This document shows positions 168-19,647 of a stretch of DNA of 62,339 nucleotides, one piece after another. Where the stretch lies: NCBI RefSeq assembly GCF_900089495.1, contig NZ_LT605203.1, forward strand, positions 3,785,086 through 3,847,424, written 5' to 3'. The DNA is from Thiomonas sp. X19 (GTDB taxonomy: Bacteria; Pseudomonadota; Gammaproteobacteria; Burkholderiales; Burkholderiaceae_C). The position numbers and the translations under genes were made by a program. The notes beneath the pieces are model-generated. The model was not told where the DNA came from. It was given only the letters and a program-made list of their open reading frames with translations, and searched no databases. The number at the start of each line of letters is the position of its first letter. The stretch's first letter is position 1.

Positions 168-626
168 TCAATCTTCGCTCGGCAGCATGATCGTGATGAC
201 CGGCTCGCCTGCGTCGCCAGGTCCGACCTGCAGCTTGAGCGTGGCCAGGCGGGGACGAACGCCCCGGCCATCGCGCGGGATGCGCAAGACTTGAAACAAG
301 ATCGGGTCGCGGCCATCGTGCCCACGGCGCAGGCCTGCGCGGATCGCACGCGATGCCATCCACACGACATCCCAAAGCCTGCCGCTCTCGCTCTGCCAGC
401 ACGCCCCGCCACCCTTGCGCTTGTCGTCGGCGTCGGTCCAAGCGCAGGCGTCGGCCCACGCGGCGGATGTGAGGGCCACGGGCCACACGATGCCGGCCTC
501 GCGTGCGGTGGTGCTGACATCGATCAGCATGCCGTCCTCGATGGCTTGCGCGCGGGTGTACATGTGGATGGGTTCGCCGAAGATTTCTTGCATGGCGTCG
601 GTGCGGGTGATGGTTGCTGCGGTCAT
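168..626 (-). CDS. DUF6573-like plasmid protein
   Basis: This 152-aa soluble protein begins with MTAATITRTDAMQEIFGEPI and contains YTRAQAIEDGMLIDVS, GRLWDVVWMASRAIR and a final GEPVITIMLPSED. That layout is typical of DUF6573 proteins, which are common on plasmids and conjugative elements and have no established function. The ATG at 624-626 is preceded by a good GGAG site (CAGGAGCACACACC), so the longer upstream reading frame was not used. It lies 28 bp after the stop of the upstream gene 655-939 and is probably co-transcribed with it. No catalytic motif is recognisable. Confidence 0.72.
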   Translation of the reverse strand: MTAATITRTDAMQEIFGEPIHMYTRAQAIEDGMLIDVSTTAREAGIVWPVALTSAAWADACAWTDADDKRKGGGACWQSESGRLWDVVWMASRAIRAGLRRGHDGRDPILFQVLRIPRDGRGVRPRLATLKLQVGPGDAGEPVITIMLPSED

Positions 627-654
627 GGTGTGTGCTCCTGCGTGGTTGCGTGGA

Positions 655-2548: not shown

Positions 2549-2568
2549 CATAGGCAAGCGCGGAAACT
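2549..2568 (-). promoter_or_regulatory. 20-bp element copy 1
   Basis: The minus strand reads TTTCC at the left and CTATG at the right with the standard eight bases between. It lies upstream of 2323-2496 and overlaps the stop codon of 2568-2831. Confidence 0.75.
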
Positions 2569-2831
2569 CAAGCTGCCAGCGCGTCGATGAACTCTTCAAA
2601 ACGATTGCTTGGCTGCTCCTGCCCGGTGCCAAGCGCAGCGGCCAGGATGCGGTCCTCAGGGCAGCCGCACATGCAATGCATGGAAAGCCGCCCCGCCTTG
2701 AGCGTGACTTCGAGGCTGGACGTGAATACGCCCGCGTGCGCTGGGCACTTCATGGCGATGCACGCGTTGTCGATCTGGCCGATGTTGTCAAGGATCGCGA
2801 CCAGCACATCGCCGCTGTCTTCGTTTTGCAT
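2568..2831 (-). CDS. stand-alone primase-type zinc-finger protein
   Basis: This 87-aa protein contains KCPAHAGVFTSSLEVTLKAG, then HCMCGCPEDRILAALG. The C-P-x-H...SL...C-x-x-GC...IL-x-ALG arrangement is that of the CHC2 zinc-binding domain found at the N-terminus of DnaG- and phage-type primases. Here it is a separate gene, and the element's helicase (15382-18493) lacks such a domain, so the two may work together in element replication. The ATG at 2829-2831 follows AGGAGAACATC. Two tandem copies of the 20-bp element precede it, which is unique in this window. Confidence 0.6.
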   Translation of the reverse strand: MQNEDSGDVLVAILDNIGQIDNACIAMKCPAHAGVFTSSLEVTLKAGRLSMHCMCGCPEDRILAAALGTGQEQPSNRFEEFIDALAA

Positions 2832-2874
2832 GATGTTCTCCTGTTTGCGGGGTGACTCGTGCCGCCCATGCCTT

Positions 2875-2894
2875 CATAGGCAAGCGCGGAAATT
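2875..2894 (-). promoter_or_regulatory. 20-bp element copy 2
   Basis: The minus strand reads AATTTCCGCGCTTGCCTATG, 43 bp before the ATG of the zinc-finger gene 2568-2831. This is the best match to the consensus. Confidence 0.8.
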
Positions 2895-2935
2895 GCGCGA
2901 GCCTCACGGCTGCGCTGGGCTTGCCGCTTGTTTGG

Positions 2936-2955
2936 TATAGGGATGCGCGGAAATC
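2936..2955 (-). promoter_or_regulatory. 20-bp element copy 3
   Basis: This copy has TTTCC and CTATA with the standard spacing, 61 bp from copy 2. Together they give the zinc-finger gene a tandem pair. Confidence 0.7.
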
Positions 2956-2961
2956 GCGCGC

Positions 2962-3573
2962 TCAGGCCAGCGGCACCACGAGTTGCAGGCCAACAAAGCC
3001 AGCGCTTTGCCCTGCGTTGGGGACGGCAACGAGGTTGATGCCCCAGCCGCTTGCGTTCCTCACTTCAAGCAACGCCGCAGCCATCAACGGCCGTGCTGGC
3101 GCTTCCTGGTTTGTGTACCCACTGATGACGCCAGCAAGGCCGCCAGCGGCCACGCTGAAGCCCGCTGGCAGGGTGGATGTGAGCGGGGTGTAGGTCGCGG
3201 TGGCGTAGACCGATTCGCGGCTGTAGCTGTTCTTGTAGAAGCCAGCCGCAAAGCCCACGCTGGGGCTGTACTGGTACTCAAGGCCCAGCCCTGGGTTGTC
3301 CTGGTTGAGGCTGTCGCGCGCCCACTGCCGCAGGTGATAGGACGTGGTGCTGACATCGAGGCCCCAGCGCGGCCGAGCGGGCAGTTCTGCGGCCCTGGCG
3401 GTACTTGGGAATGTGAGATAGCCGATGACGGCGATAGCGACGGCGGCCAGGATCACAAGCAGGCGGGTCAGGATGGTGCTGATGATCGCGCGGCGTCGCG
3501 CGGCGCGGCGCTGGCGCCGATAGGCGTGCGCCTCTTGAATGAATTGCTGGATGGGGATGTAGCGTGATGCCAT
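2962..3573 (-). CDS. outer-membrane beta-barrel-like protein
   Basis: The N-terminus is basic (YRRQRRAARRR), followed by a hydrophobic helix (about 35-55) and a likely signal-peptidase site near ARA-AELPARP. The rest alternates short strands such as LGLEYQYSPSVGFAAGFYKN and ends WGINLVAVP...VGLQLVVPLA. Similar small barrel proteins are encoded by phages and mobile elements, in the broad style of PagP/PagL-sized barrels, but no lipase or palmitoyltransferase residues are evident. The ATG at 3571-3573 follows AGGAGCTTGCC, 24 bp after a 20-bp element. It may alter the cell surface; this is inferred from topology only. Confidence 0.6.
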   Translation of the reverse strand: MASRYIPIQQFIQEAHAYRRQRRAARRRAIISTILTRLLVILAAVAIAVIGYLTFPSTARAAELPARPRWGLDVSTTSYHLRQWARDSLNQDNPGLGLEYQYSPSVGFAAGFYKNSYSRESVYATATYTPLTSTLPAGFSVAAGGLAGVISGYTNQEAPARPLMAAALLEVRNASGWGINLVAVPNAGQSAGFVGLQLVVPLA

Positions 3574-3597
3574 GGCAAGCTCCTGTGTTGGTGCTTG

Positions 3598-3617
3598 CAT
3601 AGGCAAGGGTGGAAATT
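3598..3617 (-). promoter_or_regulatory. 20-bp element copy 4
   Basis: The minus strand has AATTTCC, then CTATG at the standard distance, 24 bp before the barrel gene 2962-3573. It starts 18 bp after the T-tract of the pilin terminator. Confidence 0.75.
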
Positions 3618-3634
3618 GCGCGCGCAGCGCACGC

Positions 3635-3669
3635 AAAAAGCCCCGCCGCATCTCACGATGGGCGGGGCT
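3635..3669 (-). terminator. terminator of the pilin gene
   Basis: On the minus strand the stem AGCCCCGCC / GGCGGGGCT is followed by TTTTT, 17 bp after the pilin stop codon. Confidence 0.8.
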
Positions 3670-3685
3670 CTGGGTCAACTCTCCA

Positions 3686-4156
3686 TTACGGGCAGTCGCC
3701 TTGGCCGGGGCCTTCGCCACGGGTGCCGCCGTCACAGATCGTGCCCGTGTTCAGCCAGGTCATGGAGGTGCTGCCCAAGGCGGCGAAGTCATGGACGTGC
3801 AGCGCCACGCCTGCCGAGCTTGTGGCGGCAGAATTAGCGTCGATGACCACGGTCGGCGCGCCACCAGCCGAGCCAATTGAGATGGCTGGGTTGATGACAT
3901 TCGCGGTGGCGGTGATGGACGCCGGCATGCCGTATTGGCCCAGCGTGCCGCACTTGCTGAGCGTGCCCTGGGTTTGCGCGCATAGCGCCACGGACGTCTT
4001 CACCGCGCCCAGCTCACTCATCGTCGCCGATGCGTGGGCGCGGCTGGTGTAGTTGCCGTACATGGGAACGGCGATGGCCGCCAGGATGCCGATGATCGCC
4101 ACGACGATCATCAACTCGATCAGGGTGAAACCTTGCTGCTGTTTGTTGTGCTTCAT
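3686..4156 (-). CDS. type IV prepilin (PilA-like), orphan
   Basis: The 156-aa protein has a short leader and the prepilin peptidase site QQQG/FTLIE, followed by the hydrophobic alpha-1 helix [17 protein letters not shown]. The mature Glu5 needed for assembly is present. Two C-terminal cysteines (TGTICDGG and GQGDCP) can form the usual disulfide-bonded D-region. It is a complete type IVa major-pilin-like subunit, yet no pilus assembly genes lie nearby. It would have to use the host's PilBCDMNOPQ machinery. It has its own element promoter motif and terminator. A role in phage or mating-pair receptor switching, or in DNA uptake, is an inference. Confidence 0.9.
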
Positions 4157-4196
4157 GTTGAGACCTTTCGAGGGGAACGGCGGCGTGCCGTGCATC

Positions 4197-4216
4197 AATA
4201 GGCATCGGCGGAAATT
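4197..4216 (-). promoter_or_regulatory. 20-bp element copy 5
   Basis: AATTTCCGC is followed by CCTATT at the standard spacing, 40 bp before the pilin ATG. Confidence 0.75.
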
Positions 4217-4270
4217 GCACGCGGTGGGCAAGTGAGCACAGGCCAGTGCACGTCACTTGTCCACGGGGCG

Positions 4271-4313
4271 CATGCGCGAGCAGCGCGCATGAAAAACCCC
4301 GCCGGGGCGGGGT
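4271..4313 (-). terminator. terminator plus repeated 21-bp palindrome
   Basis: On the minus strand CCCCGCC-GG-GGCGGGG is followed by TTTTT and then the palindrome CATGCGCG-CTGCT-CGCGCATG (4271-4291), identical to the one at 1143-1163. It ends the unit 4328-4555. Confidence 0.75.
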
Positions 4314-4327
4314 AGGTGGAGGGGGGA

Positions 4328-4555
4328 TCAGCCCCAAACGCTTTGGTGATAATCCAGCGCGCCCTTGACCTGCTGGACCACATCCATGTCCAGAAAAATG
4401 ATGTGCTGGTCCATGTCATCCATTTCGCTGCCAGCCCGGATGAAGCCGGCACCGACCATGAAAACGACCTCCCTGTAGCCCTTCTCCCTCACCTTGGCCA
4501 ACCACGCCTTGTCTTTCTTGACCAAGCCCAGGGCTTGGTGATAAGTGTCATTCAT
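4328..4555 (-). CDS. hypothetical protein, 75 aa
   Basis: This soluble acidic protein starts MNDTYHQALGLVKKDKAWLA and includes a mixed hydrophobic strand VVFMVGAGFI and a run of aspartates (DDMDQHIIFLDMDVV). No family is recognised. The ATG at 4553-4555 is preceded by AAAAGGAAACCATC. It forms a complete single-gene unit: element copy 6 lies 49 bp upstream and a strong terminator follows the stop. Confidence 0.6.
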   Translation of the reverse strand: MNDTYHQALGLVKKDKAWLAKVREKGYREVVFMVGAGFIRAGSEMDDMDQHIIFLDMDVVQQVKGALDYHQSVWG

Positions 4556-4604
4556 GATGGTTTCCTTTTCGGTTGCCGGGCGGCTCACTTGCTGCCCGTG
4601 CCTT

Positions 4605-4624
4605 CATAGGCGCATGCGGAAATT
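4605..4624 (-). promoter_or_regulatory. 20-bp element copy 6
   Basis: AATTTCCGC is followed by CCTATG at the standard spacing. It starts eight bases after the T-tract of the preceding terminator. Confidence 0.8.
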
Positions 4625-4632
4625 CAAGACGC

Positions 4633-4666
4633 AAAAAACCCGGCGCCGCATGGCTGCTGGCCGGGT
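4633..4666 (-). terminator. terminator of the HTH gene
   Basis: On the minus strand the stem ACCCGG / CCGGGT with an inner GGC/GCC extension is followed by TTTTTT, 22 bp after the stop of 4688-4972. Confidence 0.75.
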
Positions 4667-4687
4667 GAAGGACTGCCATCATGAAAC

Positions 4688-4972
4688 TCAGGCCATCTTT
4701 CGTGGCCGACCGCGCCCACGCTTGGCGGGCGGCTCGGGCGCGCGTGTGACCACTTCGGCTGTGCTGGTCATTGCCTTGGCCTCGGCCCAGGCGATGATCT
4801 GGGCCGGGCTGTAGAGGGCGCGACCGGCTATCCTGATGCAGGGCACATTGCCCGCTTCACCCGTGCGGCGGTCTCGGTTGAGCAAGGACTTGCTCACGCC
4901 CAAAATACGCGCGGCTTCGGCCACGCCAACGAGGCGCGGCAGGACGATTTCAGGGGTTGCTTTGTCGTTCAT
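4688..4972 (-). CDS. helix-turn-helix protein with AT-hook-like tail
   Basis: Residues about 15-60 (VGVAEAARILGVSKSLLNRD, then IRIAGRALYSPAQIIAWAE) form a MerR/AlpA/excisionase-type winged helix: helix-turn-helix, wing and downstream helix. The C-terminus is PPAKRGRGRPRKMA, an AT-hook core (RGRP flanked by basic residues). A DNA-binding protein with both parts could be a transcription regulator of the element or an excision/architectural factor. The ATG at 4970-4972 lies two bases after the stop of the preceding small gene, so they are co-transcribed from element copy 7. The target is unknown. Confidence 0.75.
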   Translation of the reverse strand: MNDKATPEIVLPRLVGVAEAARILGVSKSLLNRDRRTGEAGNVPCIRIAGRALYSPAQIIAWAEAKAMTSTAEVVTRAPEPPAKRGRGRPRKMA

Positions 4973-4974
4973 GG

Positions 4975-5133
4975 TCAGGCTCCTTGGATGGATGGTTTGT
5001 ATTTCGGCCCAAATAACGCCCACACCCACGGATCGCGCCGGGGCGCGAGTTCGGGAACGGGCCTCTTGGTCTTGATGGCTTTGCCGCTGCGGAAGACGCG
5101 GGCTTCGGGTTTGGTGGTCTTGGTCGTTTTCAT
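4975..5133 (-). CDS. hypothetical basic protein, 52 aa
   Basis: This small Lys/Arg/Pro-rich protein starts MKTTKTTKPEARVFRSGKAI and has the aromatic segment DPWVWALFGPKYKP near its end. No family is recognised. It is supported by a ribosome site (AGGAGCCCCACC), a copy of the 20-bp element 21 bp upstream, and tight linkage to the HTH gene that follows. It may be a small partner of that regulator. Confidence 0.55.
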   Translation of the reverse strand: MKTTKTTKPEARVFRSGKAIKTKRPVPELAPRRDPWVWALFGPKYKPSIQGA

Positions 5134-5154
5134 GGTGGGGCTCCTTTCCCTGTG

Positions 5155-5174
5155 TATAGGCAGGGCAGGAAATA
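5155..5174 (-). promoter_or_regulatory. 20-bp element copy 7
   Basis: ATTTCC and CCTATA lie at the standard spacing upstream of 4975-5133. The copy lies in the divergent gap with the plus-strand gene 5199-5393. Confidence 0.7.
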
Positions 5175-5198
5175 GCGAAGCTGGGATAATGTGTCTGC

Positions 5199-5393
5199 AT
5201 GAAGCTGCGATTCAACAAAGAGGTCAGGAAGTCGATTGCCGAAGAACTCAAGAAAGTCTCGACGTTCGGCGGCATCGGCCTTGGCGTCCTTGGCTACTCG
5301 ACACGCGCCCCGTTGATGCTTTTTGGCGCGTTCGTCTGGTGGGTGGTCTGTCAGACCATCGCGGCGTTTCTGCTCTCCATGGAGGATGAATGA
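5199..5393 (+). CDS. small membrane protein, 64 aa
   Basis: The N-terminal third is charged (MKLRFNKEVRKSIAEELKKV). It is followed by two hydrophobic stretches separated by a short turn (TFGGIGLGVLGYS; LMLFGAFVWWVVCQTIAAFL). No family is recognised. It is one of the few plus-strand genes here and does not use the 20-bp element. A GATAAT-like -10 (5185-5190) ends only eight bases before the ATG, and no ribosome site is visible, so the message may be leaderless. Its stop overlaps the next ATG. Confidence 0.55.
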   Translation: MKLRFNKEVRKSIAEELKKVSTFGGIGLGVLGYSTRAPLMLFGAFVWWVVCQTIAAFLLSMEDE

Positions 5394-5521
5394 TGAGCTT
5401 CACCGAAGCGGCGTTCTATGGCATGGGGCTTGTCGTCCTGTTCGGTTTGGCGGCGGTCGTGTTGGCCGTGTTGCAAAAGCCGTCGAAGTCGAAACACGAG
5501 CCCCACTTCCCTGTGCACTGA
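5393..5521 (+). CDS. membrane microprotein, 42 aa
   Basis: This 42-aa protein has one transmembrane helix (MGLVVLFGLAAVVLAVL) and a short basic tail ending KHEPHFPVH. The ATG overlaps the preceding stop codon (TGATG), which indicates translational coupling with 5199-5393. No function is recognised. A strong symmetrical hairpin follows and separates it from the convergent gene 5559-5804. Confidence 0.5.
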   Translation: MSFTEAAFYGMGLVVLFGLAAVVLAVLQKPSKSKHEPHFPVH

Positions 5522-5531
5522 CAGGCTCTCA

Positions 5532-5552
5532 GGGCCGGGTTCACCCCGGCCC
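5532..5552. terminator. bidirectional hairpin between convergent genes
   Basis: The perfect stem GGGCCGGG / CCCGGCCC lies between the stops of 5393-5521 and 5559-5804. There is no T-tract. Confidence 0.5.
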
Positions 5553-5558
5553 CTCTGA

Positions 5559-5804
5559 TCACGCCTCAGCCTTGACCTGCCCCCCTGTGGTCGGGTCGAG
5601 GCCGCAGCTTTGGGCCATCCAGCCCAGGCGCTGCGCGGCTTCTGGGTACATGTGCGCGCTGGTGCGCTCCCCTGCCTCGTGATCGGCGAGCATCGAGCCA
5701 AGGGCGTCGATTTCACCGATGGTGAGGACCAGCCACAGGTCGCCCAAGCCCCAGCTTGAAAGCGCCTGCAGCACCGCATCGGCGTTCACTTGCGGCGCGT
5801 TCAC
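5559..5804 (-). CDS. hypothetical protein, 81 aa
   Basis: This soluble protein starts MNAPQVNADAVLQALSSWGL and has TIGEIDALGSMLADH in the middle. The GTG start at 5802-5804 is chosen because GGGAG lies upstream and it overlaps the stop of the lipoprotein gene (GTGA). No family is recognised. It is the second gene of a unit with the lipoprotein and may act with it. Confidence 0.5.
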   Translation of the reverse strand: MNAPQVNADAVLQALSSWGLGDLWLVLTIGEIDALGSMLADHEAGERTSAHMYPEAAQRLGWMAQSCGLDPTTGGQVKAEA

Positions 5805-6316
5805 GGCTTGCTCCCTTGGGTTGCTTGAAGAGGCAAGACGCGAGCCGGTTGGCCGTAGCCACCCACGACCTCCACACGCTCGCCGACGTAGAGTTGCACG
5901 TCGGCTGCCTGGGTGACGGCGAAATTCCCGCCACCGTCCATGGCGACGGTGATCTGCACACCACGCTGCTTGTAGGCCGCATTGGTGGCCGCCTCGCCGC
6001 CGATGCCACCAGCGATGGCGCCCAGCACAGCCGCAACTTTGGAGCCGTTGCCGTTTCCAATACGCGACCCGATGAAGCCACCCGCCAGCGCGCCGAGCAG
6101 GCCGCCGGGCGTGGTGGCACCGCCTGGGGCAGAGATGGTGATGGGCTGCACCGAGACCACGGTGCCAAGTTGCACGGCCTGGACCTGCTGAGCCTGGCCA
6201 GGCGTGTAGGACAAGGCCGATGCCGAAGGCGAGCCGCCCAGCATCGGCGGCACGCCGGCGCAGCCGGTGAGCAGCAGGCCAAGGGCCGCTGCGACGATGA
6301 GGATGATCTTGTTCAT
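5801..6316 (-). CDS. glycine-zipper outer-membrane lipoprotein (SlyB/17-kDa antigen-like)
   Basis: The 171-aa protein starts MNKIILIVAAALGLLLTGCAG. LLTGC is a lipobox with the lipidated cysteine at residue 18. Residues about 70-112 (GGLLGALAGGFIGSRIGNG and following AVLGAIAGGIGGEAATNAA) form a glycine-zipper hairpin of the Rickettsia 17-kDa/SlyB type, which inserts into membranes. The C-terminal part (VQITVAMDGGGNFAV...LYVGERVEVV) is a small beta domain typical of these proteins. It probably sits in the outer membrane. The longer frame upstream of the ATG at 6314-6316 lacks a signal peptide and was not used. Confidence 0.82.
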   Translation of the reverse strand: MNKIILIVAAALGLLLTGCAGVPPMLGGSPSASALSYTPGQAQQVQAVQLGTVVSVQPITISAPGGATTPGGLLGALAGGFIGSRIGNGNGSKVAAVLGAIAGGIGGEAATNAAYKQRGVQITVAMDGGGNFAVTQAADVQLYVGERVEVVGGYGQPARVLPLQATQGSKP

Positions 6317-6365
6317 AGGGCTCTCCAGTTGGGTTGTGCGCGGGCCGCATGGCCCGGCGCGTGGG

Positions 6366-6614
6366 TCATTCATCGTTGGGGTCAGGCAGGTCCGAGTCGT
6401 CGGGCTTGTCCAGCGCCGCGACGATTTTGGCCAGCACGGCGCTTTGCTTCTCGGACAAGAAAACCTTGTCCTTGAACTTGTCGAACCGCTCAGTCAGCTT
6501 CTTCAGAAACTCCTTTTCCCAATCATTGGCCTTGTCCTTATCGGCCTTGCTCAGCTTGCTGACGCGAGCCAGATTGGCCTTGTCGGCCTTGGTCAGTTCA
6601 CGCTTGTCTTCCAT
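6366..6614 (-). CDS. lysine-rich coiled-coil protein, 82 aa
   Basis: This highly charged protein has repeated KADK/LSKADKDKA motifs and a long helix through WEKEFLKKLTERFDKFKD, ending in an acidic tail DDSDLPDPNDE. It is predicted to be almost all helix and possibly a coiled coil. No family is recognised. The ATG at 6612-6614 follows AAGGAGTAAATC. Element copy 8 lies 54 bp upstream, so it is the first gene of the unit that continues into the lipoprotein. Confidence 0.6.
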   Translation of the reverse strand: MEDKRELTKADKANLARVSKLSKADKDKANDWEKEFLKKLTERFDKFKDKVFLSEKQSAVLAKIVAALDKPDDSDLPDPNDE

Positions 6615-6668
6615 GATTTACTCCTTGTAGTCTGGAAGTTGAAACCGGACCGGGTGGTCCGTGCTTTG

Positions 6669-6688
6669 CATAGGCGGACGCGGAAATT
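6669..6688 (-). promoter_or_regulatory. 20-bp element copy 8
   Basis: AATTTCCGC and CCTATG lie at the standard spacing, 54 bp before the ATG of 6366-6614. The copy touches the stop codon of 6688-7071. Confidence 0.8.
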
Positions 6689-7071
6689 CAGGTCTGCCTG
6701 GTGAGCTGCCGCACGCTGAGCGCCGTATTCAGCAGTTTTGCGGCGGCATACAAACTCAGCCAAGGCAAAACCCAGAGCCACAAATCGAGCAGGACGACCG
6801 GCTTGAAATGATCGAGCCGGGTCGTCCAAAAATCGACAAGCGACGTTTTCTTCGCTTCTGCGAGATAACCATCAAGCGTCGCGCCAGTCGTTGTCGAACC
6901 ATCCCCAAATGTGAATATCTTGGGCTGCAAAAAGCCCGGCTCAAGCGTGTGGATCACCAGCACGCGGGCGATGCCGCGCGCAGCAGGCGGGAATTTTTCG
7001 GCCGTGAATGTGGCTGCGGCGAGATAAACACAAAACCACAACCCAGCGAGAATCAAAAGATACTTTTTCAT
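6688..7071 (-). CDS. membrane protein with two spans, 127 aa
   Basis: The N-terminus MKKYLLILAGLWFCVYLAAA is a signal anchor. A second hydrophobic segment (VVLLDLWLWVLPWLSLYAAA) lies near the C-terminus, with a periplasmic loop of about 70 residues between. No family is recognised. The start is two bases after the stop of the upstream gene 7074-7355, so they are translated from one message. The layout resembles small inner-membrane proteins of conjugative or phage systems, but no function can be assigned. Confidence 0.6.
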   Translation of the reverse strand: MKKYLLILAGLWFCVYLAAATFTAEKFPPAARGIARVLVIHTLEPGFLQPKIFTFGDGSTTTGATLDGYLAEAKKTSLVDFWTTRLDHFKPVVLLDLWLWVLPWLSLYAAAKLLNTALSVRQLTRQT

Positions 7072-7073
7072 GA

Positions 7074-7355
7074 TTAACCCTTCGTGTTGTAATCGTTGAT
7101 ACGGCACACGCAATCGCGCATGAATGCAATCCACACGGCGCCGATTGGATGATCTTCACCGAGATGATTCCAAATCAACTCGGCGCAAACGACTTTGCGG
7201 TGATGCCCGAGCGCCGGAGCATCGGGGAAGTCGGAGAGATAATGGGCAATTTCGCCCATGAGTTCCTGTCCCTCGTCCATGGGCTGGGTGTAGTTATTCG
7301 CGAAATCCTCCAGAAAATCGAGTTTGGCGGCGAATGTTTGGGTATCGTGATTCAT
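7074..7355 (-). CDS. hypothetical protein, 93 aa
   Basis: This soluble acidic protein starts MNHDTQTFAAKLDFLEDFAN and carries two histidine-containing segments (PALGHHRKVVCAELIWNHLG). No family is recognised. The ATG at 7353-7355 follows GGAGAAACACC. There is no 20-bp element directly upstream. The gene lies after the microprotein 7477-7623 and two GC-rich hairpins (7391-7414 and 7447-7465), so it may depend on read-through. Confidence 0.5.
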   Translation of the reverse strand: MNHDTQTFAAKLDFLEDFANNYTQPMDEGQELMGEIAHYLSDFPDAPALGHHRKVVCAELIWNHLGEDHPIGAVWIAFMRDCVCRINDYNTKG

Positions 7356-7476
7356 GGTGTTTCTCCGTGGTGAGTAATTCGTGAATCCCCGCGCGCGGCG
7401 CGTTGGCCGCGCGCTGGCTTTATCGGGCCAGGGGGTTAAGGTTTCGCCGGAGCGATTAGCTCCGGTGGGTTGGCGG

Positions 7477-7623
7477 TTATTTGGCGTTGATCGGCACCAG
7501 CACCACGCCTTGGGCGGCGGGGGTCATGCTGTTCATCATTTGGTCCATTTCGTGGACCGCGAAGAAAATGCCGCCAACGATCAACAGGCCGCCGACAAAT
7601 TTGATGAGGGTGATGATGTCCAT
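7477..7623 (-). CDS. membrane microprotein (paralogue of 1475-1618)
   Basis: The 48-aa protein has one hydrophobic helix (FVGGLLIVGGIFFAV), then HEMDQMMNSMTPAAQGVVLVP and the final INAK. It closely matches the protein at 1475-1618 in helix, HEM motif and tail, so both are probably functional copies of one ancestral gene. The ATG at 7621-7623 is preceded by an AGGAG site. Element copy 9 lies 45 bp upstream, unlike its paralogue, which has palindromic operators. The role is unknown. Confidence 0.65.
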   Translation of the reverse strand: MDIITLIKFVGGLLIVGGIFFAVHEMDQMMNSMTPAAQGVVLVPINAK

Positions 7624-7668
7624 TTGAAACTCCTGGTTGTTGGGACGCGCACTCGCTGCCCATACTCA

Positions 7669-7688
7669 TATAGGCTGGGGCGGAAACT
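7669..7688 (-). promoter_or_regulatory. 20-bp element copy 9
   Basis: AGTTTCCGC and CCTATA lie at the standard spacing, 45 bp before the microprotein 7477-7623. Confidence 0.75.
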
Positions 7689-7713
7689 CGAACGCGTGCG
7701 AGGCTGGCAAGAT

Positions 7714-7802
7714 GGGATGGTGAAACGCCACCCCACTTTTTGGCATGGGGGTCGTGAAACGCGACCTCCTTTTGGACATGGGGGTAACGAAACGGAACCC
7801 CC
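7714..7802. repeat. three 33-bp tandem hairpin units
   Basis: Three hairpins begin at 7714, 7747 and 7780, exactly 33 bp apart. Each has an apical GAAACG. The stems differ but keep pairing: TGG/CCA in unit 1, GGTCG/CGACC in unit 2, GGGGGT/ACCCCC in unit 3. The first two linkers share a TTTTTGG- or TTTTGG-type stretch ending CAT. Compensating changes in the stems suggest selection on the folded nucleic acid. The array lies between element copies 10 and 9 and would be transcribed leftward from copy 10. Confidence 0.65.
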
Positions 7803-7939
7803 TTTCCAACCTGGGCAGGTGTTGACTGCGGCGCAAAATGCAGTGGCTTCGCCTAATGAAGCCCTTGGCCCGAGCTTTTCAGGCTGGTTTGATAACCGCA
7901 GAGCGTCCGAAAGTAGACGATCCCCAATAAATGGAGCCC

Positions 7940-8118
7940 ACGACGGCCGCAACTGCGTTGGCTTGACGTGCTTTGGCGGCATGAATGCACCGATTTTGTG
8001 CGCCCATGCCGGATTTCGGCCATGACTACGTCGGTTCGACGTGGCTAAGGCTCAACGGGGTGGTGTTTCACCACCCCGTTGGCTGATTTCGGCCTGAAAG
8101 TGCGTTGGTTCGACGTGG
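7940..8118. repeat. three units of about 73 bp with conserved core and variable hairpins
   Basis: Cores at 7940-7971, 8012-8044 and 8085-8118 share GGCC-N8-CG-YGTTGG-YT-GACGTG when read on the plus strand, with starts 72 and 73 bp apart. Between cores lie different hairpins: GGCATG...GCAC/GTGC...CATGCC near 7979-8010, and the perfect AACGGGGTGGTG / CACCACCCCGTT at 8054-8080. The last hairpin also has a GAAA apex on the minus strand. Regular spacing of about seven helical turns fits a protein-binding array or a repeated RNA domain. Confidence 0.6.
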
Positions 8119-8198
8119 TGAGGCTCGCGGAGCAGAGCCGGGGCGCCACTTTGAGTGGACACCCATGAGGTCGAGCAGTCGTTGGCGCACCATGCGCT

Positions 8199-8218
8199 TA
8201 TAGGAAGACGCGGAAATT
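8199..8218 (-). promoter_or_regulatory. 20-bp element copy 10, upstream of non-coding repeats
   Basis: AATTTCCGC and CCTATA lie at the standard spacing. Unlike the others, it is not followed by a convincing gene: only a 41-codon frame without a ribosome site starts near 8194. It faces the hairpin arrays at 7714-8118, so the product may be an untranslated RNA. Confidence 0.7.
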
Positions 8219-8240
8219 GGTTATCGCGACAGTGCCTGTC

Positions 8241-8331
8241 GATGCCGCAGCCTAAAGCTGCGGCATTAGCATTGCCGCTGGCTGATGGATGGGTTTGGAT
8301 TGACACTCAAAACCCGGTCACGGTTTTATCG
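8241..8331. terminator. two strong hairpins flanking the structured block
   Basis: ATGCCGCAGC / GCTGCGGCAT forms a 10-bp perfect stem near 8241-8265. A longer stem beginning CTCAAAACCC and ending GGGGTTTTGAG, with inner GTCACG/CGTGAC, spans about 8308-8350. Neither has a classical T-tract. They may be terminators or part of a larger RNA. Confidence 0.4.
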
Positions 8332-8344
8332 TGACGGGGTTTTG

Positions 8345-8900
8345 AGGTGCAGTGGATTCAACGCCACGCTGCAGCGCGGTGAAGACCAGATCGCCTGACG
8401 CGGAAGCGGCTGGCGAGCCTGGGCTGAGACGTGTGGCGGCGTGGGTCAGGAGCCGCAGGGCGGGAGTGCGAGCACGACATGAGACATCGCCCTAAGGCGA
8501 TGGCGAATGCGGCGAAGACACGACCAACACTGCGGGGCGAGGCCGGCCAGGCCGAAGCCGTCGAGTGCGAGGGGAGAGCCAGCCGAACGGCTGGCGCGGG
8601 TGAGTAAGGAAGTGGCGTGCAGGTGGCATGACAGCCGTAGGCTGGCGTGACACTTGCCCCGCCACGACCGCACCGAACCCCGACCCGAAGACACGAGACC
8701 GGGGGGGCCGCTGCCATCGACCGCGACACGCAGACCACGACTGAGCGACAGCGAAGAAGTGGGCTAAGTGCCGGGCGAAGACGCGCCCAAGCGCGTCGGT
8801 GGCAGTGGGGGCGACAGCCCCGGCATCGAGCCCCAAAGGGGCGAGGGGGTGCCTTACCAACGGCCTCATCGTTGGTAAGGCACCCCCTCGCCCCTTTGCC
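8345..8900 (+). ncRNA. candidate large structured RNA
   Basis: About 550 bp show no plausible reading frame but many short perfect stems: TGCAG/CTGCA (8348-8373), CATCGCC-CTAA-GGCGATG (8485-8502), GCCAGCCG-AA-CGGCTGGC (8578-8595), GACGCGC-CCAA-GCGCGTC (8780-8797) and GGGGC-GACA-GCCCC (8808-8821). GACA is a GNRA loop only on the plus strand. Purine-rich single-stranded repeats (GAAGAC occurs four times) also favour the plus strand as the RNA. It ends in the 28-bp hairpin at 8835-8897. It does not match RNase P, tmRNA, 6S or group II intron features that I can recognise. An origin or transfer region is the main alternative. Confidence 0.4.
8835..8897. repeat. perfect 28-bp inverted repeat with 7-nt loop
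   Basis: The arms 8835-8862 and 8870-8897 are exact reverse complements (beginning AAAGGGGCGAGGGGGTGCC), with the loop GCCTCAT. It is by far the strongest hairpin in the window. It may be a terminator of the structured block, a recombination or transfer site, or a protein-bound cruciform. Confidence 0.85.
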
Positions 8901-8982
8901 CGGAGGGCATAGGGAGCGATGCCGCCGACTTTTCTTGCGGTGAGGTGAGCCCCCTAGGGCGAAAAGACCACGGCCCCCCTAG

Positions 8983-10584
8983 GAGACTGTCGGACTTTGC
9001 GGTCTTCCGGATGAAGACGCTATCCGAGACAATTGCTGCTGCACAACCGAGAGCCCGAGCCGATGAGCCGCTTCGTCCCTGTTGACCGAGACACCGCATA
9101 TCTGTTGCCACCGTCGGTGGACGAATGGCTGCCCACTGATCACTTGGCGCGCTTCGTGGTCGAAGTCATCGAGCAGCTTGATCTGGGCGATCTGGCCCGA
9201 CAGTACGCAGGCCGGGGCTCGGCGGCGCACCATCCGGCGGTGCTGCTGGGCCTGCTGATCTACGGCTACGCCAACGGCGTGCACTCCAGCCGCAAGATCG
9301 AGCGGGCGACCTACGACTCGGTGGCGTTCCGCTTTGTTGCGGCCAATACCCACCCCGATCACGACACGCTGGCGACGTTCCGCCGCCGCTTCTTGAAGGA
9401 GGTGGAGGCACTGTTCGTGCAGGTGCTGGTTCTGGCGCGCGAGATGAAGCTGCTCAAGCTCGGACACATCGCGCTGGATGGCACCAAGATCGACGCCAAC
9501 GCCAGCAAGCACAAGGCCTTGTCGTGGGCTCATGCCAACAAGATCGAGGCGCAGCTGCGCCAGGAAGTACAAACGCTGCTGGCGCTGGCAGAGAACAGCG
9601 ACCGCGCGACGGTACCCGACGGCATGGATGTGCCGGCGGAGATCGCCCTGCGTGCAGATCGCTTGAGCGCAATCGCGCAGGCCAAGGCCAAGATCGAGCA
9701 GCGCGCCAGCGAACGCCATCAGGTCGAGCAGCAGGAGTACGAGGCCAAGACCGCCAAGCGCCAAGCCCAGCGCGAGGCGGGCAAGAAGCCGCGCGGCAAG
9801 GACCCTGAGCCGCCAGAGGCCGGCCCCCGGAGCAGCGATCAGGTCAACCTCACGGATGAAGAGTCGCGCATCATGCCCGTGTCGGGTGGGGGCTTCGAGC
9901 AAAGCTACAACGCACAAGCCGGCGTGGACATCGCGACGATGATGGTGATCACCCAGCATGTGAGCCAGGCATCCAACGACAAGCGCGAAGTTGTGCCTAC
10001 GCTGCAGCAGATCCAAGCGTTACCCGCGGTGCTGGGCGAGGTGCACACGCTCATCACGGACAACGGCTTCTTCAGCCAAGCCAACGTGATCGCGTGCAAC
10101 GACGCGGGTATCGAGCCGCTGCTGGCGCTCAAGCGGGAGTCGCATCACACGCCGGTGATGGGGCGCTTTGCACCCGATGTGCCCGAGCCCCAGACGACGG
10201 ATCCGCTCGTGCAGATGGCACACCGCCTGGGCACGCAAGCAGGCCGAGCCCTGTACGGCCTGCGCAAGCAGACAGTGGAGCCGGTGTTCGGCATCATCAA
10301 GCAAGTGATGGGTTGGCGCCAGATGAGCATGCGCGGGCTGGCCAAGGCACAAGGCGAATGGAGCTTGGTGACCATGGCTTGGAACATCAAGCGCATGCAC
10401 GTCCTGCGAGCCGCGTGAGGGCAATAGTGCGCCCCGACCACGCCAAAACCGAGTCCCCAGGCCGCCCCATGTGCCCTCACAGTGTCTCGCCAACCATCGA
10501 GAGCGTTCGATCAGCGCGCCGCTGTCAAAAAAAACGCGTCGCACTGATCAATCGGATTCGCTCGGGTTCAAGTCCGACAGCCTC
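8983..10584 (+). mobile_element. IS1182-family insertion sequence, copy 1
   Basis: This 1602-bp element has terminal inverted repeats GAGACTGTCGGACTT (left) and GAGGCTGTCGGACTT (right, reversed). It is flanked on both sides by CTAG (8979-8982 and 10585-10588), the target duplication. It carries one transposase gene. The sequence appears identical to copy 2 at 16024-17625, so at least one transposition was recent. It sits between the structured non-coding block and the end of the replication-relaxation gene. Confidence 0.92.
9063..10418 (+). CDS. IS1182-family transposase (copy 1)
   Basis: This DDE-type transposase has an N-terminal DUF772-like domain (HLARFVVEVIEQLDLGDLA; HHPAVLLGLLIYGYANGVHS) and catalytic-core segments GHIALDGTKIDANASKHKAL (first Asp), LITDNGFFSQANVI (second Asp) and EPVFGIIKQVMGWRQMSMRG (Glu). 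A charged coiled-coil insert (residues about 200-265) separates the first two parts. The ATG at 9063 (MSRFVPVDRD) is preferred to the TTG 30 bp upstream, which lies close to the left terminal repeat. The enzyme moves the element into CTAG sites. Confidence 0.92.
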   Translation: MSRFVPVDRDTAYLLPPSVDEWLPTDHLARFVVEVIEQLDLGDLARQYAGRGSAAHHPAVLLGLLIYGYANGVHSSRKIERATYDSVAFRFVAANTHPDHDTLATFRRRFLKEVEALFVQVLVLAREMKLLKLGHIALDGTKIDANASKHKALSWAHANKIEAQLRQEVQTLLALAENSDRATVPDGMDVPAEIALRADRLSAIAQAKAKIEQRASERHQVEQQEYEAKTAKRQAQREAGKKPRGKDPEPPEAGPRSSDQVNLTDEESRIMPVSGGGFEQSYNAQAGVDIATMMVITQHVSQASNDKREVVPTLQQIQALPAVLGEVHTLITDNGFFSQANVIACNDAGIEPLLALKRESHHTPVMGRFAPDVPEPQTTDPLVQMAHRLGTQAGRALYGLRKQTVEPVFGIIKQVMGWRQMSMRGLAKAQGEWSLVTMAWNIKRMHVLRAA

Positions 10585-10721
10585 CTAGGGGCGAGCGCAG
10601 CGAGAGTGGTCTGGCCTCATGCCTTGGCCTTTGACTTGTGCGCAGCCTTGGTGCGCTGCGCAAGTGCGCACCCCTGCGAAGCGGACGGTCGCCGCGCATG
10701 GCGCCAGCGCACCATGCAGCA

Positions 10722-11468
10722 TCATCGCGCTGGAAACGCATCGATGTGTGTGAATGCGAGCAACGGGTGGTGCTGCTCTGGGATGATGCGAACTGTCTGC
10801 TTCACCCCGGCGTGTGTGCGGCTGAACTCACGAATTGACAACACCAGTCCACGTAATCTGGCAGCTTCGTGGGGTGTCTCCGTGACCCAAATTGCGCGCT
10901 GGTACTTGCCTGCCTTTATGTCACGCAAGCGCGTGAATAAGATGGATTCATAACGGCCGCTAGTCTTGATGGTGCGCTCGAATTCGACGCACCAAACCGT
11001 GCCTGCCGCGTCCTTCGCCGTGGCGTCGGGCCGCGAATCTGCATCGAACTTGGCGAGCCTGTCCCCACTCTCCCACCCCGCCCAGCCCGCCCTTTCAGCG
11101 CTGATTTTCATCCGTTGCAAACCCACCGTGTGCGAGAGAAGTGTGAGTCCAATCCTGTTTGGTTTGAAGTAGGAGGCGCTTGGAATTTCATGATCGTCCC
11201 CGGCCATTAACTGCCCTTTCGGTGTGATACCCCAAAGCATCGGCCTCCATCCGCTCGGCGCGGTGACTTGTTGGCGTGTGATTAACTCTGCCCGCTCCAT
11301 CGCGACCAAAGTTCGTTTGGTTTGATCTGCCGATAATCCTAATAACATTTGCATAACATTAAGCGTCGTATAAATCTCTTCGCGCAAGAACCGCAAAACA
11401 ATGTTTTGCTTATCTGCAGCGCGCTGCATACGCTGCGCAAATGTCATTTGTGGCGGTAATGCGCTCAT
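10722..11468 (-). CDS. replication-relaxation family protein
   Basis: This 248-aa protein starts with a winged-helix-like region (LRFLREEIYTTLNVMQMLLG, then KRTLVAMERAELITRQQV). A C-terminal alpha/beta domain follows with HTVGLQRMKISAERAGWAGW and WCVEFERTIKTSGRYESI, where an Asp/Glu-rich nuclease-like core (DADSRPDATA; VEFE) is visible. This layout fits the Replic_Relax family, found on conjugative plasmids and linked to plasmid replication or DNA relaxation. It lies 13 bp downstream of the coupling ATPase, so it shares that operon, and starts after AAGGAGAAGGAT. IS1182 copy 1 is inserted shortly after its stop. Confidence 0.7.
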   Translation of the reverse strand: MSALPPQMTFAQRMQRAADKQNIVLRFLREEIYTTLNVMQMLLGLSADQTKRTLVAMERAELITRQQVTAPSGWRPMLWGITPKGQLMAGDDHEIPSASYFKPNRIGLTLLSHTVGLQRMKISAERAGWAGWESGDRLAKFDADSRPDATAKDAAGTVWCVEFERTIKTSGRYESILFTRLRDIKAGKYQRAIWVTETPHEAARLRGLVLSIREFSRTHAGVKQTVRIIPEQHHPLLAFTHIDAFPAR

Positions 11469-11481
11469 ATCCTTCTCCTTT

Positions 11482-13080
11482 TTAGATTATGTCTTGCGCT
11501 TTGGTCGGGTCACTCTTACTGCTTCGCACCACGGCTGCGGCTGGGGTAATGTCAGGGGTCTTGCCCGGAGTCATATAACCCGCCGCCAAAAGCACCGGCG
11601 CGCCATGACCGAACATCCAGAATACGGGTGCATCCTGCGCATTGGCGGGTTTTGGCATGGCGGTACTCAGCATATCCGGGGTCACATTTTCACGAAGCTG
11701 CCTGAAATACTGCCCCTGCTCCAAACCCTCGGCGTTCGTGGTTTTGCCCGTGGTTTCAAGTTCGACCGCATATTTACCCGACAAGCTGGAAAGCTCCTTT
11801 GCGGTTTCGTCATCCTCCAGGCGAAATACAAGTTTGAGGCTGGTATTCCCTTTGGCTGCACCCAAAACAGCCTTGGAAGGTAATGATCCTGAATCATGCA
11901 AATCGCCGTAGCTTTGGAAGGCGAGATAAACGGTCGCCCGTTGGTCGCGAATCGTGCCCAAAGCGCGCAAGCTGGTTTGACCCAGGCTGTATTTGAACTC
12001 GTCCAAAAACAAGTGGACGTGTCTGGCTCCGTTTCGGTCCCGATTCTTGATGATTTGCACGATGCGGGTCAGCAACATTTTCTGCGCTGCCACCACACGC
12101 AAATCGTCGACCGAGCCAACGATATACACGAGACCACCCCGCTCGATAATCTCGGCCAGATTCGGCCCTGCTGCTGTGTCGAATGCGCCCAGGCGTGCCA
12201 TATCCTTGAGAGCACGCCAGAAATTCTGACGGCTGGTGACTTCGTCGACGTCGGCGCCTATATTGACCATCGAGCGCAGATTGAATTGGCCTTCGGTCAG
12301 CTTATCGAGTAGCGTTGCGCAGGCATCCCTATCCTCACCACGGTAAAAATCAACGGCTGGATCGCCGGAATTCTCAAGCTGCAAAGCCGTATTGACCAAG
12401 ACCTCGCATTCAGTTTTTGTGCAGCCCTGGAACACGTTAATCTGCGGAATATCCTTGCGCAGATCGATGAATGCCGTTGGCTTCCCCAGCTTTTGTGCCT
12501 CACGGAACAAAATGCCGGGGGCGAATTCATCGTTCTTGGGGTCGATCACCACGCATGCATCCCCGGCTGTCATAGCCTGAACAAGCAGCGAAGTTGTAAT
12601 CACCGTTTTGCCTGTGCCGCTCGCTCCAATAATCGCCATGTGGTTTTTGCGCGCTTGGTCGGGGCTAATCGTCATCGGCACGTCGCGAACCTTCGCAGGC
12701 TCTTTCTTGCCCTTGCCTGGCCGACAGCCCATGCCCACGAATACGGCTTGGTGCTGGCTTGCCGACGCGAGCCACGGCTCGGCCTGGTAGCTTGGCTTCT
12801 GCATGAACTGGCCCATCTGCACGTGTGCGTGCACGTTCGGCAGATCGTCGGCTTGCACCTGCGGCTGGCGCGCCAGCCAGGCTTTGCGGGCCATGAAAAT
12901 GATGAGGGCAAAGCCTGTCAGGACCCCCAAGGCGCTGCCCAAGTTTGGCGCACCAGCGGCTCCTGCCACAGCGCTCACCATCATGCCAGCAACGCTCGGA
13001 AGAATGGCCCATTTCAGAACCTTGCCAGACAGCCAGGCTGTGGCGCGTTGGCTATGGCCCCTAAGAATGTCGATGATCAT
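11482..13080 (-). CDS. TraD/TraG-family coupling ATPase
   Basis: The 532-aa protein has two N-terminal membrane helices (about 24-42 and 47-64) and a Walker A GASGTGKT (residues 152-159). An FtsK/HerA-like motor domain follows (ACVVIDPKNDEFA), then a Walker B HVHLFLDEF in a TraG-C-like segment that continues with LGTIRDQRATVYLAFQSYGD. This is the layout of type IV secretion coupling proteins, hexameric ATPases that bring relaxase-bound DNA to a mating pore. No pore genes are visible, so the element is probably mobilisable, or its T4SS lies outside the window. It starts at 13078-13080 and is served by element copy 11. Confidence 0.85.
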   Translation of the reverse strand: MIIDILRGHSQRATAWLSGKVLKWAILPSVAGMMVSAVAGAAGAPNLGSALGVLTGFALIIFMARKAWLARQPQVQADDLPNVHAHVQMGQFMQKPSYQAEPWLASASQHQAVFVGMGCRPGKGKKEPAKVRDVPMTISPDQARKNHMAIIGASGTGKTVITTSLLVQAMTAGDACVVIDPKNDEFAPGILFREAQKLGKPTAFIDLRKDIPQINVFQGCTKTECEVLVNTALQLENSGDPAVDFYRGEDRDACATLLDKLTEGQFNLRSMVNIGADVDEVTSRQNFWRALKDMARLGAFDTAAGPNLAEIIERGGLVYIVGSVDDLRVVAAQKMLLTRIVQIIKNRDRNGARHVHLFLDEFKYSLGQTSLRALGTIRDQRATVYLAFQSYGDLHDSGSLPSKAVLGAAKGNTSLKLVFRLEDDETAKELSSLSGKYAVELETTGKTTNAEGLEQGQYFRQLRENVTPDMLSTAMPKPANAQDAPVFWMFGHGAPVLLAAGYMTPGKTPDITPAAAVVRSSKSDPTKAQDII

Positions 13081-13083
13081 GAT

Positions 13084-13434
13084 TTACTCCCTGATGTTGG
13101 CTTTGCTGTTGTCCATGGGTCGTGACGACCACTCTTCCCATGCATAGGCAAGGGCGGAAATTGAGAGGCCCGTCGCGAGGGTCATGAACCATGCGGTGGT
13201 TGTGATGGGTGTGCTGCACGCCCACCTGACCAGCACCCCTTGCAGCGCCAAGTGCTGAGGGGCAAGCGGGGCTGACTGATGCCAGTACAGCCACTCAAAG
13301 TGCCAAATTCGGGCGGCCCAGCCCGCCCACAGGGACAGGCTGATGGCGGCACTGACGGTGCCGATGACGAAGGCTCGCGTTGCCCAGTGAATGCGGCTGC
13401 GTTTGGTTCTTGTCGTGACGCCTTGGATTGCCAT
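13084..13434 (-). CDS. small membrane protein with two or three spans, 116 aa
   Basis: The protein starts MAIQGVTTRTKRSRIHWATR. It has hydrophobic helices at about 20-40 (AFVIGTVSAAISLSLWAGWA) and 80-100 (TAWFMTLATGLSISALAYAW). It ends three bases before the coupling-ATPase ATG and is likely its membrane partner, as small TraD-associated proteins often are; this is inferred from position only. Element copy 11 lies inside its coding sequence: the bases of the motif encode SISALAYA. Another ATG three bases away in a different frame gives a less plausible 85-aa product. Confidence 0.6.
   Translation of the reverse strand: MAIQGVTTRTKRSRIHWATRAFVIGTVSAAISLSLWAGWAARIWHFEWLYWHQSAPLAPQHLALQGVLVRWACSTPITTTAWFMTLATGLSISALAYAWEEWSSRPMDNSKANIRE
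13143..13162 (-). promoter_or_regulatory. 20-bp element copy 11, inside a coding sequence
   Basis: AATTTCCGC and CCTATG lie at the standard spacing, 62 bp before the coupling-ATPase ATG and within the 3' end of 13084-13434. Confidence 0.75.
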
Positions 13435-13473
13435 TTCATGCTCCATCTGCCCGCCGTGTGCGGGGTGTGGAGC

Positions 13474-13493
13474 TATAGACAGCGGCGGAAATT
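13474..13493 (-). promoter_or_regulatory. 20-bp element copy 12
   Basis: AATTTCCGC and TCTATA lie at the standard spacing, 39 bp before the ATG of 13084-13434. It is the most divergent copy at the CCTAT end. It backs onto the promoter of the brnTA pair. Confidence 0.65.
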
Positions 13494-15371: not shown

Positions 15372-16023
15372 CCCGGAAAAATCAGTCGGCCCTGACCACT
15401 TTCCACGTGACGCTGCCCTGCGCCAGGCTATGCTCGCGCAGCACATAGCCGCCAGCAATCCGGTCTTTTGCGCCCTGCAGCCAGCGTCCTACAGACCTGG
15501 TGGATGGTTCCTTGCCGGGACTCAAACCCATTGCATCTTCGAGCGCTAGATAGACCCCTCCATCCATTTTCAGAAGGTCGCTTGCCTTCCAGGTCATCGG
15601 CCCTTTCAGCATGAACACGGCCTCAAGCACGCCCGCGACCTCGCCCGCCCTGGGGTCCTTTTTCTGCGCCTTCACAAGCCGCGTGGCGGGGTCAAGACCC
15701 ATGAGCCAGTTGATAGGCCCCCTGCACCACTTGTGCCAGTCGTCGAAATCGCTGGCCCGCTCCAGATCATCCAAACCAGGGCACCCCGCATGCAGAAATG
15801 CAGCCTGGATCGTCATCACCGCATGAATCAATTCCTGCCTTCTACCGAGCACAAGCGCGTCTGGCATGGGGCCATTGAAGACCCTTGCCGATGGCGTCTC
15901 GTGCCTGGGATCAAGCCTGATTTCAAGGATGCGTCTGGCGCTGTCGGCGCCAGCAATAGCATTGTTCGCGGTGATGATGACGTTTGTGCAAGTGGAGACA
16001 AGGGCCTTTTTTGAGTGCCCTAG

Positions 16024-19508: not shown

Positions 19509-19573
19509 CTCGGGCAAGTACAGGAAATCGCAAGCAAGCTAAGTGATTGATTTTGCTTGATTCACGTTCTCAA

Positions 19574-19647
19574 GCGGGCGTAGTTCAATGGTAGAACTTC
19601 TGCTTCCCAAGCAGATGGCGTGGGTTCGATTCCCATCGCCCGCTCCA
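19574..19647 (+). tRNA. tRNA-Gly(CCC)
   Basis: The 74-nt gene folds as a cloverleaf: acceptor GCGGGCG/CGCCCGC, D-arm GTTC...GAAC, anticodon stem TCTGC/GCAGA with loop TTCCCAA, T-loop TTCGATT and encoded CCA. The anticodon CCC reads GGG. It is the first clearly chromosomal feature to the right of the accessory region, but the island lies on its 5' side, not at its 3' end. Confidence 0.95.

Follow-up and report, generated by a model that had tools for sequence, protein, structure and literature searches.

The motif array and the element that carries it

The window analysed here is a stretch of 62,339 nucleotides from Thiomonas sp. X19 (contig NZ_LT605203.1), and our subject is a 20-bp motif repeated in its first 13.5 kb. 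The motif lies within a mobile element bounded by a 43-bp direct repeat that includes the 5' half of tRNA-Gly(ccc); one unit of the repeat is found at 19569-19611 (plus strand), and its partner 2768 bp to the left of the window start. Between the repeats are a tyrosine integrase, a type IV secretion system-type coupling protein of 532 amino acids (aa) (11482-13080, minus strand) and a MobC-like replication-relaxation protein of 248 aa (10722-11468, minus strand; both of its model matches fall under the curated cut-offs), together with two toxin-antitoxin pairs, BrnT/BrnA and one resembling TumE, and numerous small genes that match no Pfam family. Because integrase, coupling protein, MobC-like protein, insertion sequence and toxin-antitoxin genes occur together inside a bounding repeat, we conclude that the array belongs to an integrative mobilisable element some 22.3 kb long.

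The array consists of 12 copies, all on the minus strand and in a single orientation, at the coordinates given by an earlier sequence-only reading of this DNA. That reading had described invariant TTTCC and CTAT blocks separated by exactly eight bases, and this is borne out in 12 of 12 copies (13 of 13, when a further copy before the integrase is included). When the window is scanned allowing up to three mismatches, we obtain 13 matches, of which 12 are the array copies and one is a stray with three mismatches at 5923 (plus strand); shuffled sequences yield a mean of 1.72 matches and at most 9, and none of 100 shuffles reached 13. The five bases previously written as N5 are in fact constrained, with T at position 13 in 9 of 13 copies and G at position 14 in 11 of 13. 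We therefore refine the motif to AATTTCCGC-N3-TGCCTATR. In the alignment of the 13 copies, information is concentrated at positions 1-9 and 13-19, and nothing comparable is conserved upstream.

A gene with a ribosome-binding site begins 21-62 nt behind the motif in 10 of the 12 array copies. Reading along the minus strand, AATTTCCGCCGCTGTCTATA (13474-13493) lies 39 nt before the ATG of a 116-aa membrane-protein-like gene, and AATTTCCGCCCTTGCCTATG (13143-13162), located inside the 3' end of the preceding gene, lies 62 nt before the coupling-protein ATG. The copy AATTTCCGCGTCTTCCTATA (8199-8218) precedes a strongly folding stretch of 510 nt without a good open reading frame (ORF). Then follow AGTTTCCGCCCCAGCCTATA (7669-7688), 45 nt before a 48-aa gene; AATTTCCGCGTCCGCCTATG (6669-6688), 54 nt before an 82-aa gene; TATTTCCTGCCCTGCCTATA (5155-5174), 21 nt before a 52-aa gene that is itself followed by a gene for an HTH_17-like protein; AATTTCCGCATGCGCCTATG (4605-4624), which sits 8 nt behind a hairpin with a T-run and 49 nt before a 75-aa gene; AATTTCCGCCGATGCCTATT (4197-4216), 40 nt before a prepilin-like gene; and AATTTCCACCCTTGCCTATG (3598-3617), 17 nt behind a hairpin with a T-run and 24 nt before a 203-aa gene. 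The last three copies are GATTTCCGCGCATCCCTATA (2936-2955), tandem to and lying behind the copy at 2875, with a counterpart at C3:3540317 in a sister element, where the downstream sequence is similar; AATTTCCGCGCTTGCCTATG (2875-2894), 43 nt before an 87-aa gene; and AGTTTCCGCGCTTGCCTATG (2549-2568), 52 nt before a 57-aa gene and followed by a hairpin with a 10-bp stem. The claim that eleven copies lie 21-62 bp from an ATG thus holds for the ten with a ribosome-binding site and fails for copy 8199. A second claim, that no copy precedes a plus-strand gene, must be given up: a thirteenth, weaker copy stands before the plus-strand integrase, about 2.6 kb to the left of the window.

Restriction of the motif to the element

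We scanned the 4.67-Mb host genome for the motif. The pattern TTTCC-N8-CTAT occurs at 22 places, namely the 12 array copies, the one before the integrase and nine elsewhere. Random scatter across the genome, which the sequence-only reading had named as refuting its proposal, is not what we find: the 11 places that differ from AATTTCCGC-N5-CCTATR by no more than one base all fall in the array. The five places with two mismatches are all outside it, and array copy 5155 has three. We read ten stray loci, which cover all five sites with two mismatches and each different 17-mer among the strays (three more strays beyond these ten repeat two of the 17-mers). Each of the ten falls within a stop-to-stop frame (191-340 aa; either strand), and by our script's test a ribosome-binding site and start follow the motif at none of the ten, compared with 10 of 12 array copies.

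Outside this genome, the exact motif does not form clusters. Among 199 genomes, including that of the host, 28 have matches and only the host genome has more than two; the exact motif fails in relatives because related elements carry variants of it, as described below. Twenty-one stretches of viral contigs contain one match each, which we read as chance, and the motif was not found at the coupling-protein relatives L024 and L025. When the array DNA was compared with plasmids (10 records) and phages (3), the matches amounted to some 1% of the query and fell mainly at the pilin gene. No description of the motif was found in the literature searched, a search that did not use the motif letters as text and left subscription literature mostly outside its scope.

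Variant motifs in related elements

Three variants share one geometry: V1, TTTCC-N8-CTAT, in the window element; V2, TTTCC-N8-GTA, in a sister element; and V3, TTTCG-N9-GAAT, in a third element and in an element of another species of the genus (G001). The borders of the latter three elements were set from homology and motif positions, rather than from attachment sites.

The sister element lies in the same genome, at about C3:3.5305-3.5518 Mb, and was found through the repeats behind copy 8199. Of 23 window-element genes tested, 15 have a homolog there (35-91% identity), running in one direction with the order partly rearranged; the eight without one include the coupling protein, MobC and a 251-aa protein discussed below. 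V2 occurs 15 times in the 21.3 kb of the sister element, 14 times on the plus strand and once on the minus strand before the integrase, and not at all in 115.7 kb of flanking sequence. Shuffled sequences contain a mean of 0.08 V2 matches (maximum 1) for the plus strand in 100 trials, and 0.22 (maximum 2) for both strands in 50 trials. By the script's test, 12 of the 15 copies precede a ribosome-binding site and start. Since the sister's integrase copy mirrors that of the window element, the weak integrase copy in the latter becomes credible.

The third element surrounds the second coupling-protein gene of the genome (C3:3.687 Mb), and carries V3 eight times in 16.9 kb, with one more copy in its flanks; in G001 (contig 36), V3 again occurs eight times, in 16 kb. 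Fifteen of these 17 V3 sites precede a ribosome-binding site and ORF. When all variants are tabulated against all elements, the window element holds V1 alone (13 copies), the sister V2 alone (15), and the third element and that of G001 V3 alone (8 and 8). Cross-occurrence inside the four elements is zero, and the flanks of all four together contain seven strays. Several variant copies precede homologous genes across elements. The downstream block differs by element (CCTATR, CGTAY or TGAAT), while the geometry and parts of the upstream block are kept. Another 40 kb, from G011, showed no variant array, and five smaller loci showed no array of the ATTTCC type. Thus, the regulon is real, and it is wider than the sequence-only reading had stated.

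Some indirect support also comes from protein records, for which we rely on back-translations rather than DNA. A homolog of the 116-aa protein (P0063) is extended at its N-terminus by MNFRPRLWLHTP; the codons for these residues could spell AATTTCCGC-N6-CTATGG where copy 13474 would lie, and the coupling proteins P0019 and P0021 start where the ATG in the CTATG of copy 13143 would be. As judged by locus tags, serial numbers and contig sizes, one metagenome contig of 58,175 bp carries both the 251-aa and the 116-aa families, and one of 27,451 bp carries the 251-aa and coupling-protein families.

Two further observations concern these elements. At G000 C3:3715089-3720280 there are a further integrase (37% identity) and a relative of the DUF6573 protein (68%), with a single V3 motif nearby, which suggests the remains of a fourth element. 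The DUF6573 protein itself (168-635, minus strand) shows 85-94% identity between the window, sister and third elements, the value varying with the stretch used; the integrases are only 35-62% identical, far below it.

Evidence for a probable promoter

Since the ribosome-binding site AAAGGAG begins 8 nt behind copy 5155, a transcript controlled by this copy is expected to start within about 0-7 nt of the motif. The context on the other side varies: it is coding sequence at 13143, and at 3598 and 4605 it is a hairpin with a T-run, ending 17 nt and 8 nt before the motif, respectively. The signal therefore looks self-contained. Because the ribosome-binding site follows so closely at 5155, and the hairpins with T-runs come so closely before 3598 and 4605, a core promoter must overlap the motif.

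The sequence behind the motif gives a second indication of a start site. In the window element, the 40 nt directly behind the motif fold better than shuffled sequences (mean z of -2.1 over 11 copies, omitting 2936), a signal that is gone ten bases further on (mean z 0.1). When the 5' end is shifted base by base, the best fold begins at motif position 20-21. The hairpins behind the window-element copies differ in sequence. At the motif end, the mean z is -1.4 in the sister element (14 sites), -1.8 in the third element (9 sites; -0.3 ten bases on, and also -1.25 twenty bases earlier) and -2.1 in G001 (8 sites; 0.1 ten bases on).

Sigma-70 promoters have a TTGACA-like -35 box and a TATAAT-like -10 box separated by 16-18 nt, and sigma-54 promoters have GG and GC at -24/-12. 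In 13.2 kb we find three sigma-70-type matches, compared with 3.4 in shuffled sequences, none of them near the motif, and no column upstream of the motif is conserved; the invariant letters, TTTCC and CTAT, are not those of sigma-54. The proposal, in the sequence-only reading, of a promoter-like element defining an unknown regulon on a mobile element gains support from the restriction to the element, the sigma-70-type match scan, the position of the ribosome-binding sites, the 5' hairpins and the variants of equal geometry. We consider it likely that the motif is a promoter.

Two other kinds of signal could account for some of these patterns. The motif might instead be an RNA processing site in a long transcript, cut near the motif end so that mRNAs are left with protective 5' hairpins. 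The best fold beginning at the motif end, the tandem copy at 2936 and the confinement of the array to one strand are all in keeping with this. Nevertheless, hairpins with T-runs, although not listed by our terminator scan, stand just before 3598 and 4605, divergent genes border directly on copies 13474 and 5155, and the integrase copy lies at the attachment site on the other strand; we therefore regard processing as improbable. The motif could also be the promoter of a phage-type single-subunit RNA polymerase, being a compact 20 bp with an AT-rich upstream end and CTATR at the start site, and such an enzyme would fit this tight layout and the start at position 20-21 to which the hairpins point. 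Yet PF00940 (the T7-type polymerase) has no match in this genome, even though the phage T7 positive control matched; no ORF of the required size is listed in the element; and the downstream block differs between elements. This second possibility seems to us very remote.

Candidate specificity factors

Three private variants are best explained, in our view, by a reader of the motif that is encoded by each element and has co-evolved with it. Two proteins are candidates for this role. The first, a winged-helix protein of 94 aa resembling HTH_17 with the C-terminal sequence RGRGRPRK (4688-4972, minus strand), could be a specificity factor or an excisionase. Its match to HTH_17, the winged helix expected of AlpA/Vis-like excisionase-regulators (E = 1.5e-4, 22.4 bits), is under the 27-bit cut-off, and its counterparts, with 33.2 and 32.0 bits, are above it; it also matches phrog_66, an excisionase/regulator family, at E = 2.9e-8. 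One counterpart is in the sister element (56% identity); the other, at C3:3693409 and beyond the last motif copy, lies next to the third element (29%). All three proteins end alike, in R-x-R-G-R-P-R-K, resembling an AT-hook, and their divergence parallels that of the motif. We rank this protein first as the reader, tentatively.

The second candidate is a 251-aa protein of no known family (18506-19261, minus strand), whose low-confidence structural model (predicted local distance difference test, pLDDT, of 60) is sigma-factor-like; this likeness had been noted from the letters before folding. A Foldseek search with the model gave 129 matches, none at E <= 0.001, and by our own reading 41 of the best 50 are sigma chains. 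Matches to ClpA, RFC, RuvB and designed repeats were taken as common helical arrangements. At the level of sequence, identification as a sigma factor is not supported: hhalign with three E. coli sigma factors was negative, and the 251-aa family (16 members) had no match to sigma domains of Pfam and NCBIfam up to E = 10, a search in which HMMER filters drop most weak matches. The Q-x-x-L-F with which the protein ends does not vary among all 16 members and resembles a sliding-clamp-binding motif. Searches for the family in 398 further genomes of the order (threshold E 1e-5, with few candidates scored per genome), in 27 genomes of the genus, and in viral contigs and plasmids found none. We place this putative sigma-like protein second, as a slightly less probable reader.

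Proposed mechanism and comparison with known systems

On our overall reading, the 20-bp motif acts as the core promoter for a regulon spanning the whole element, and a diverging specificity factor encoded by the element recognises it. The promoter would combine (A)ATTTCC, as its upstream block, with a second block placed a constant distance downstream, and would need no conserved -35 sequence further upstream. Transcripts would start within about 0-7 nt of the motif end, about half of them with a hairpin at the 5' end, and would probably be made by host RNA polymerase directed by the element's own factor. Related elements would keep the geometry and change other letters, so that each co-resident element might have its own transcription channel.

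Several observations weigh against this reading. A start at position 20-21, as fitted by the hairpins, is closer than the usual distance at which host polymerase begins a transcript behind a -10 box, and two blocks about 12 bp apart misfit the usual -35/-10 spacing of sigma factors. The hairpin is individually clear in 5-6 of 11 copies, the rest being near neutral, and the terminator scan lists 15 hits compared with 11.7 in shuffled sequences (standard deviation 3.8), without those before 3598 and 4605. The integrase copy is the weakest of all, with a leave-one-out score of 11.6 against 11.4 for the best background match in 122 kb, and the borders of the related elements are our own settings. 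As for the readers, no counterpart of the HTH_17/AT-hook protein was found in 40 kb of G001 by a weak pattern scan that also missed the sister's protein; the third element's gene for it has no motif in front; and no homolog of the 251-aa protein was detected in the sister or third element. On balance, we find the reading as a whole somewhat more credible than its negation.

One of the closest known parallels would give the reader a different source. In the SetCD/AcaCD regulons of SXT/R391 integrative and conjugative elements (ICEs), IncA/C plasmids and mobilisable islands, as here, one motif stands before many promoters, including those of recombination and transfer genes. By the same logic, or that of BisDC, the motif could be an operator to which a helper element's master activator binds: the activator at the motif would replace the -35 box, sigma-70 RNA polymerase would use a poor -10 box, and the island would wake upon the helper's arrival. 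A single motif before the island's recombination, mobilisation and unknown genes follows the same logic. Mobilisable genomic islands are reported to carry such sites before a gene for a 94-aa putative recombination directionality factor (PMC4542580); the copies in the window element serve the integrase, coupling protein/MobC and HTH_17 operons. However, the published sites partially overlap the -35 box, whereas the site here overlaps the start region, and no -10 box would fit between copy 5155 and the ribosome-binding site downstream of it. Nor are the CGTAY and TGAAT blocks of the other elements -10-like. No FlhC-type protein (PF05280) was found in this genome, with a positive E. coli control, although a helper in another cell is still conceivable. 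Finally, same-geometry variants differ from element to element here, and since each has its own motif, a shared helper signal is unlikely. We thus judge control by a helper to be rather unlikely, and prefer an element-encoded factor.

In the ICEclc transfer-competence regulon, several ICE promoters share a motif, and there is an alpA-bisDC node (PMC9286271). The sharing of a promoter motif across an element's promoters is common to both systems. They differ in that the element here has many small, separately promoted units, and in that no BisDC-type activator was detected, FlhC being the sole family searched. A third comparison is with the late promoters of phage T4, which depend on gp55, gp33 and the sliding clamp: these are short and lack a -35 box, and gp55 is a tiny divergent sigma factor with a C-terminal clamp-binding epitope (PMC2988020). 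The invariant QxxLF end of the 251-aa protein recalls gp55, its clamp binding and its sigma identity both being putative. Unlike the T4 late promoters, the motif here is a GC-rich, two-block sequence of 20 bp.

Regulons of mobile elements are already known; the addition here is the private variants of equal geometry. Three such variants, each confined to its own element in one genome, amount to a natural experiment in the co-evolution of promoters and factors. The motif can serve as a tag for finding such elements, it yields a short list of testable factors, and the promoters are possibly orthogonal ones for engineering. More speculatively, and we think this doubtful, there may be a family of small mobile elements with orthogonal, self-contained promoter systems, in which each element's own diverged factor, clamp-tethered and sigma-like or winged-helix, recognises a 20-bp promoter of two blocks that differs from the known bacterial classes, allowing joint switch-on with the element's own replication and no cross-talk in one cell.

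Other features of the element

The stretch behind copy 8199 (7689-8198, minus strand) is a putative structured RNA with three repeats of about 74 nt and hairpins with a GAAAC loop. Its fold, at -212.8 kcal/mol (z of -4.4), was equalled by none of 100 shuffled sequences. No Rfam family matched it, and relatives of its repeats (about 80%) occur in the sister element; it is possibly a new structured RNA.

The prepilin-like gene at 3686-4156 (minus strand; N_methyl, E = 2.5e-11) has its own motif copy, although no pilus system was seen in the element; a pilin-like gene is also present at the edge of the V3 element in G001. At the left end of the window, positions 1-890 repeat directly, and almost identically, the sequence immediately upstream, at an offset of 1055 bp. 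An insertion sequence of 1613 bp is present in two identical copies inside the element (8977-10589 and 16018-17630). The second copy separates the ORFs at 15382-16152 and 17609-18493, both of which match neighbouring parts of the phage family phrog_29234.

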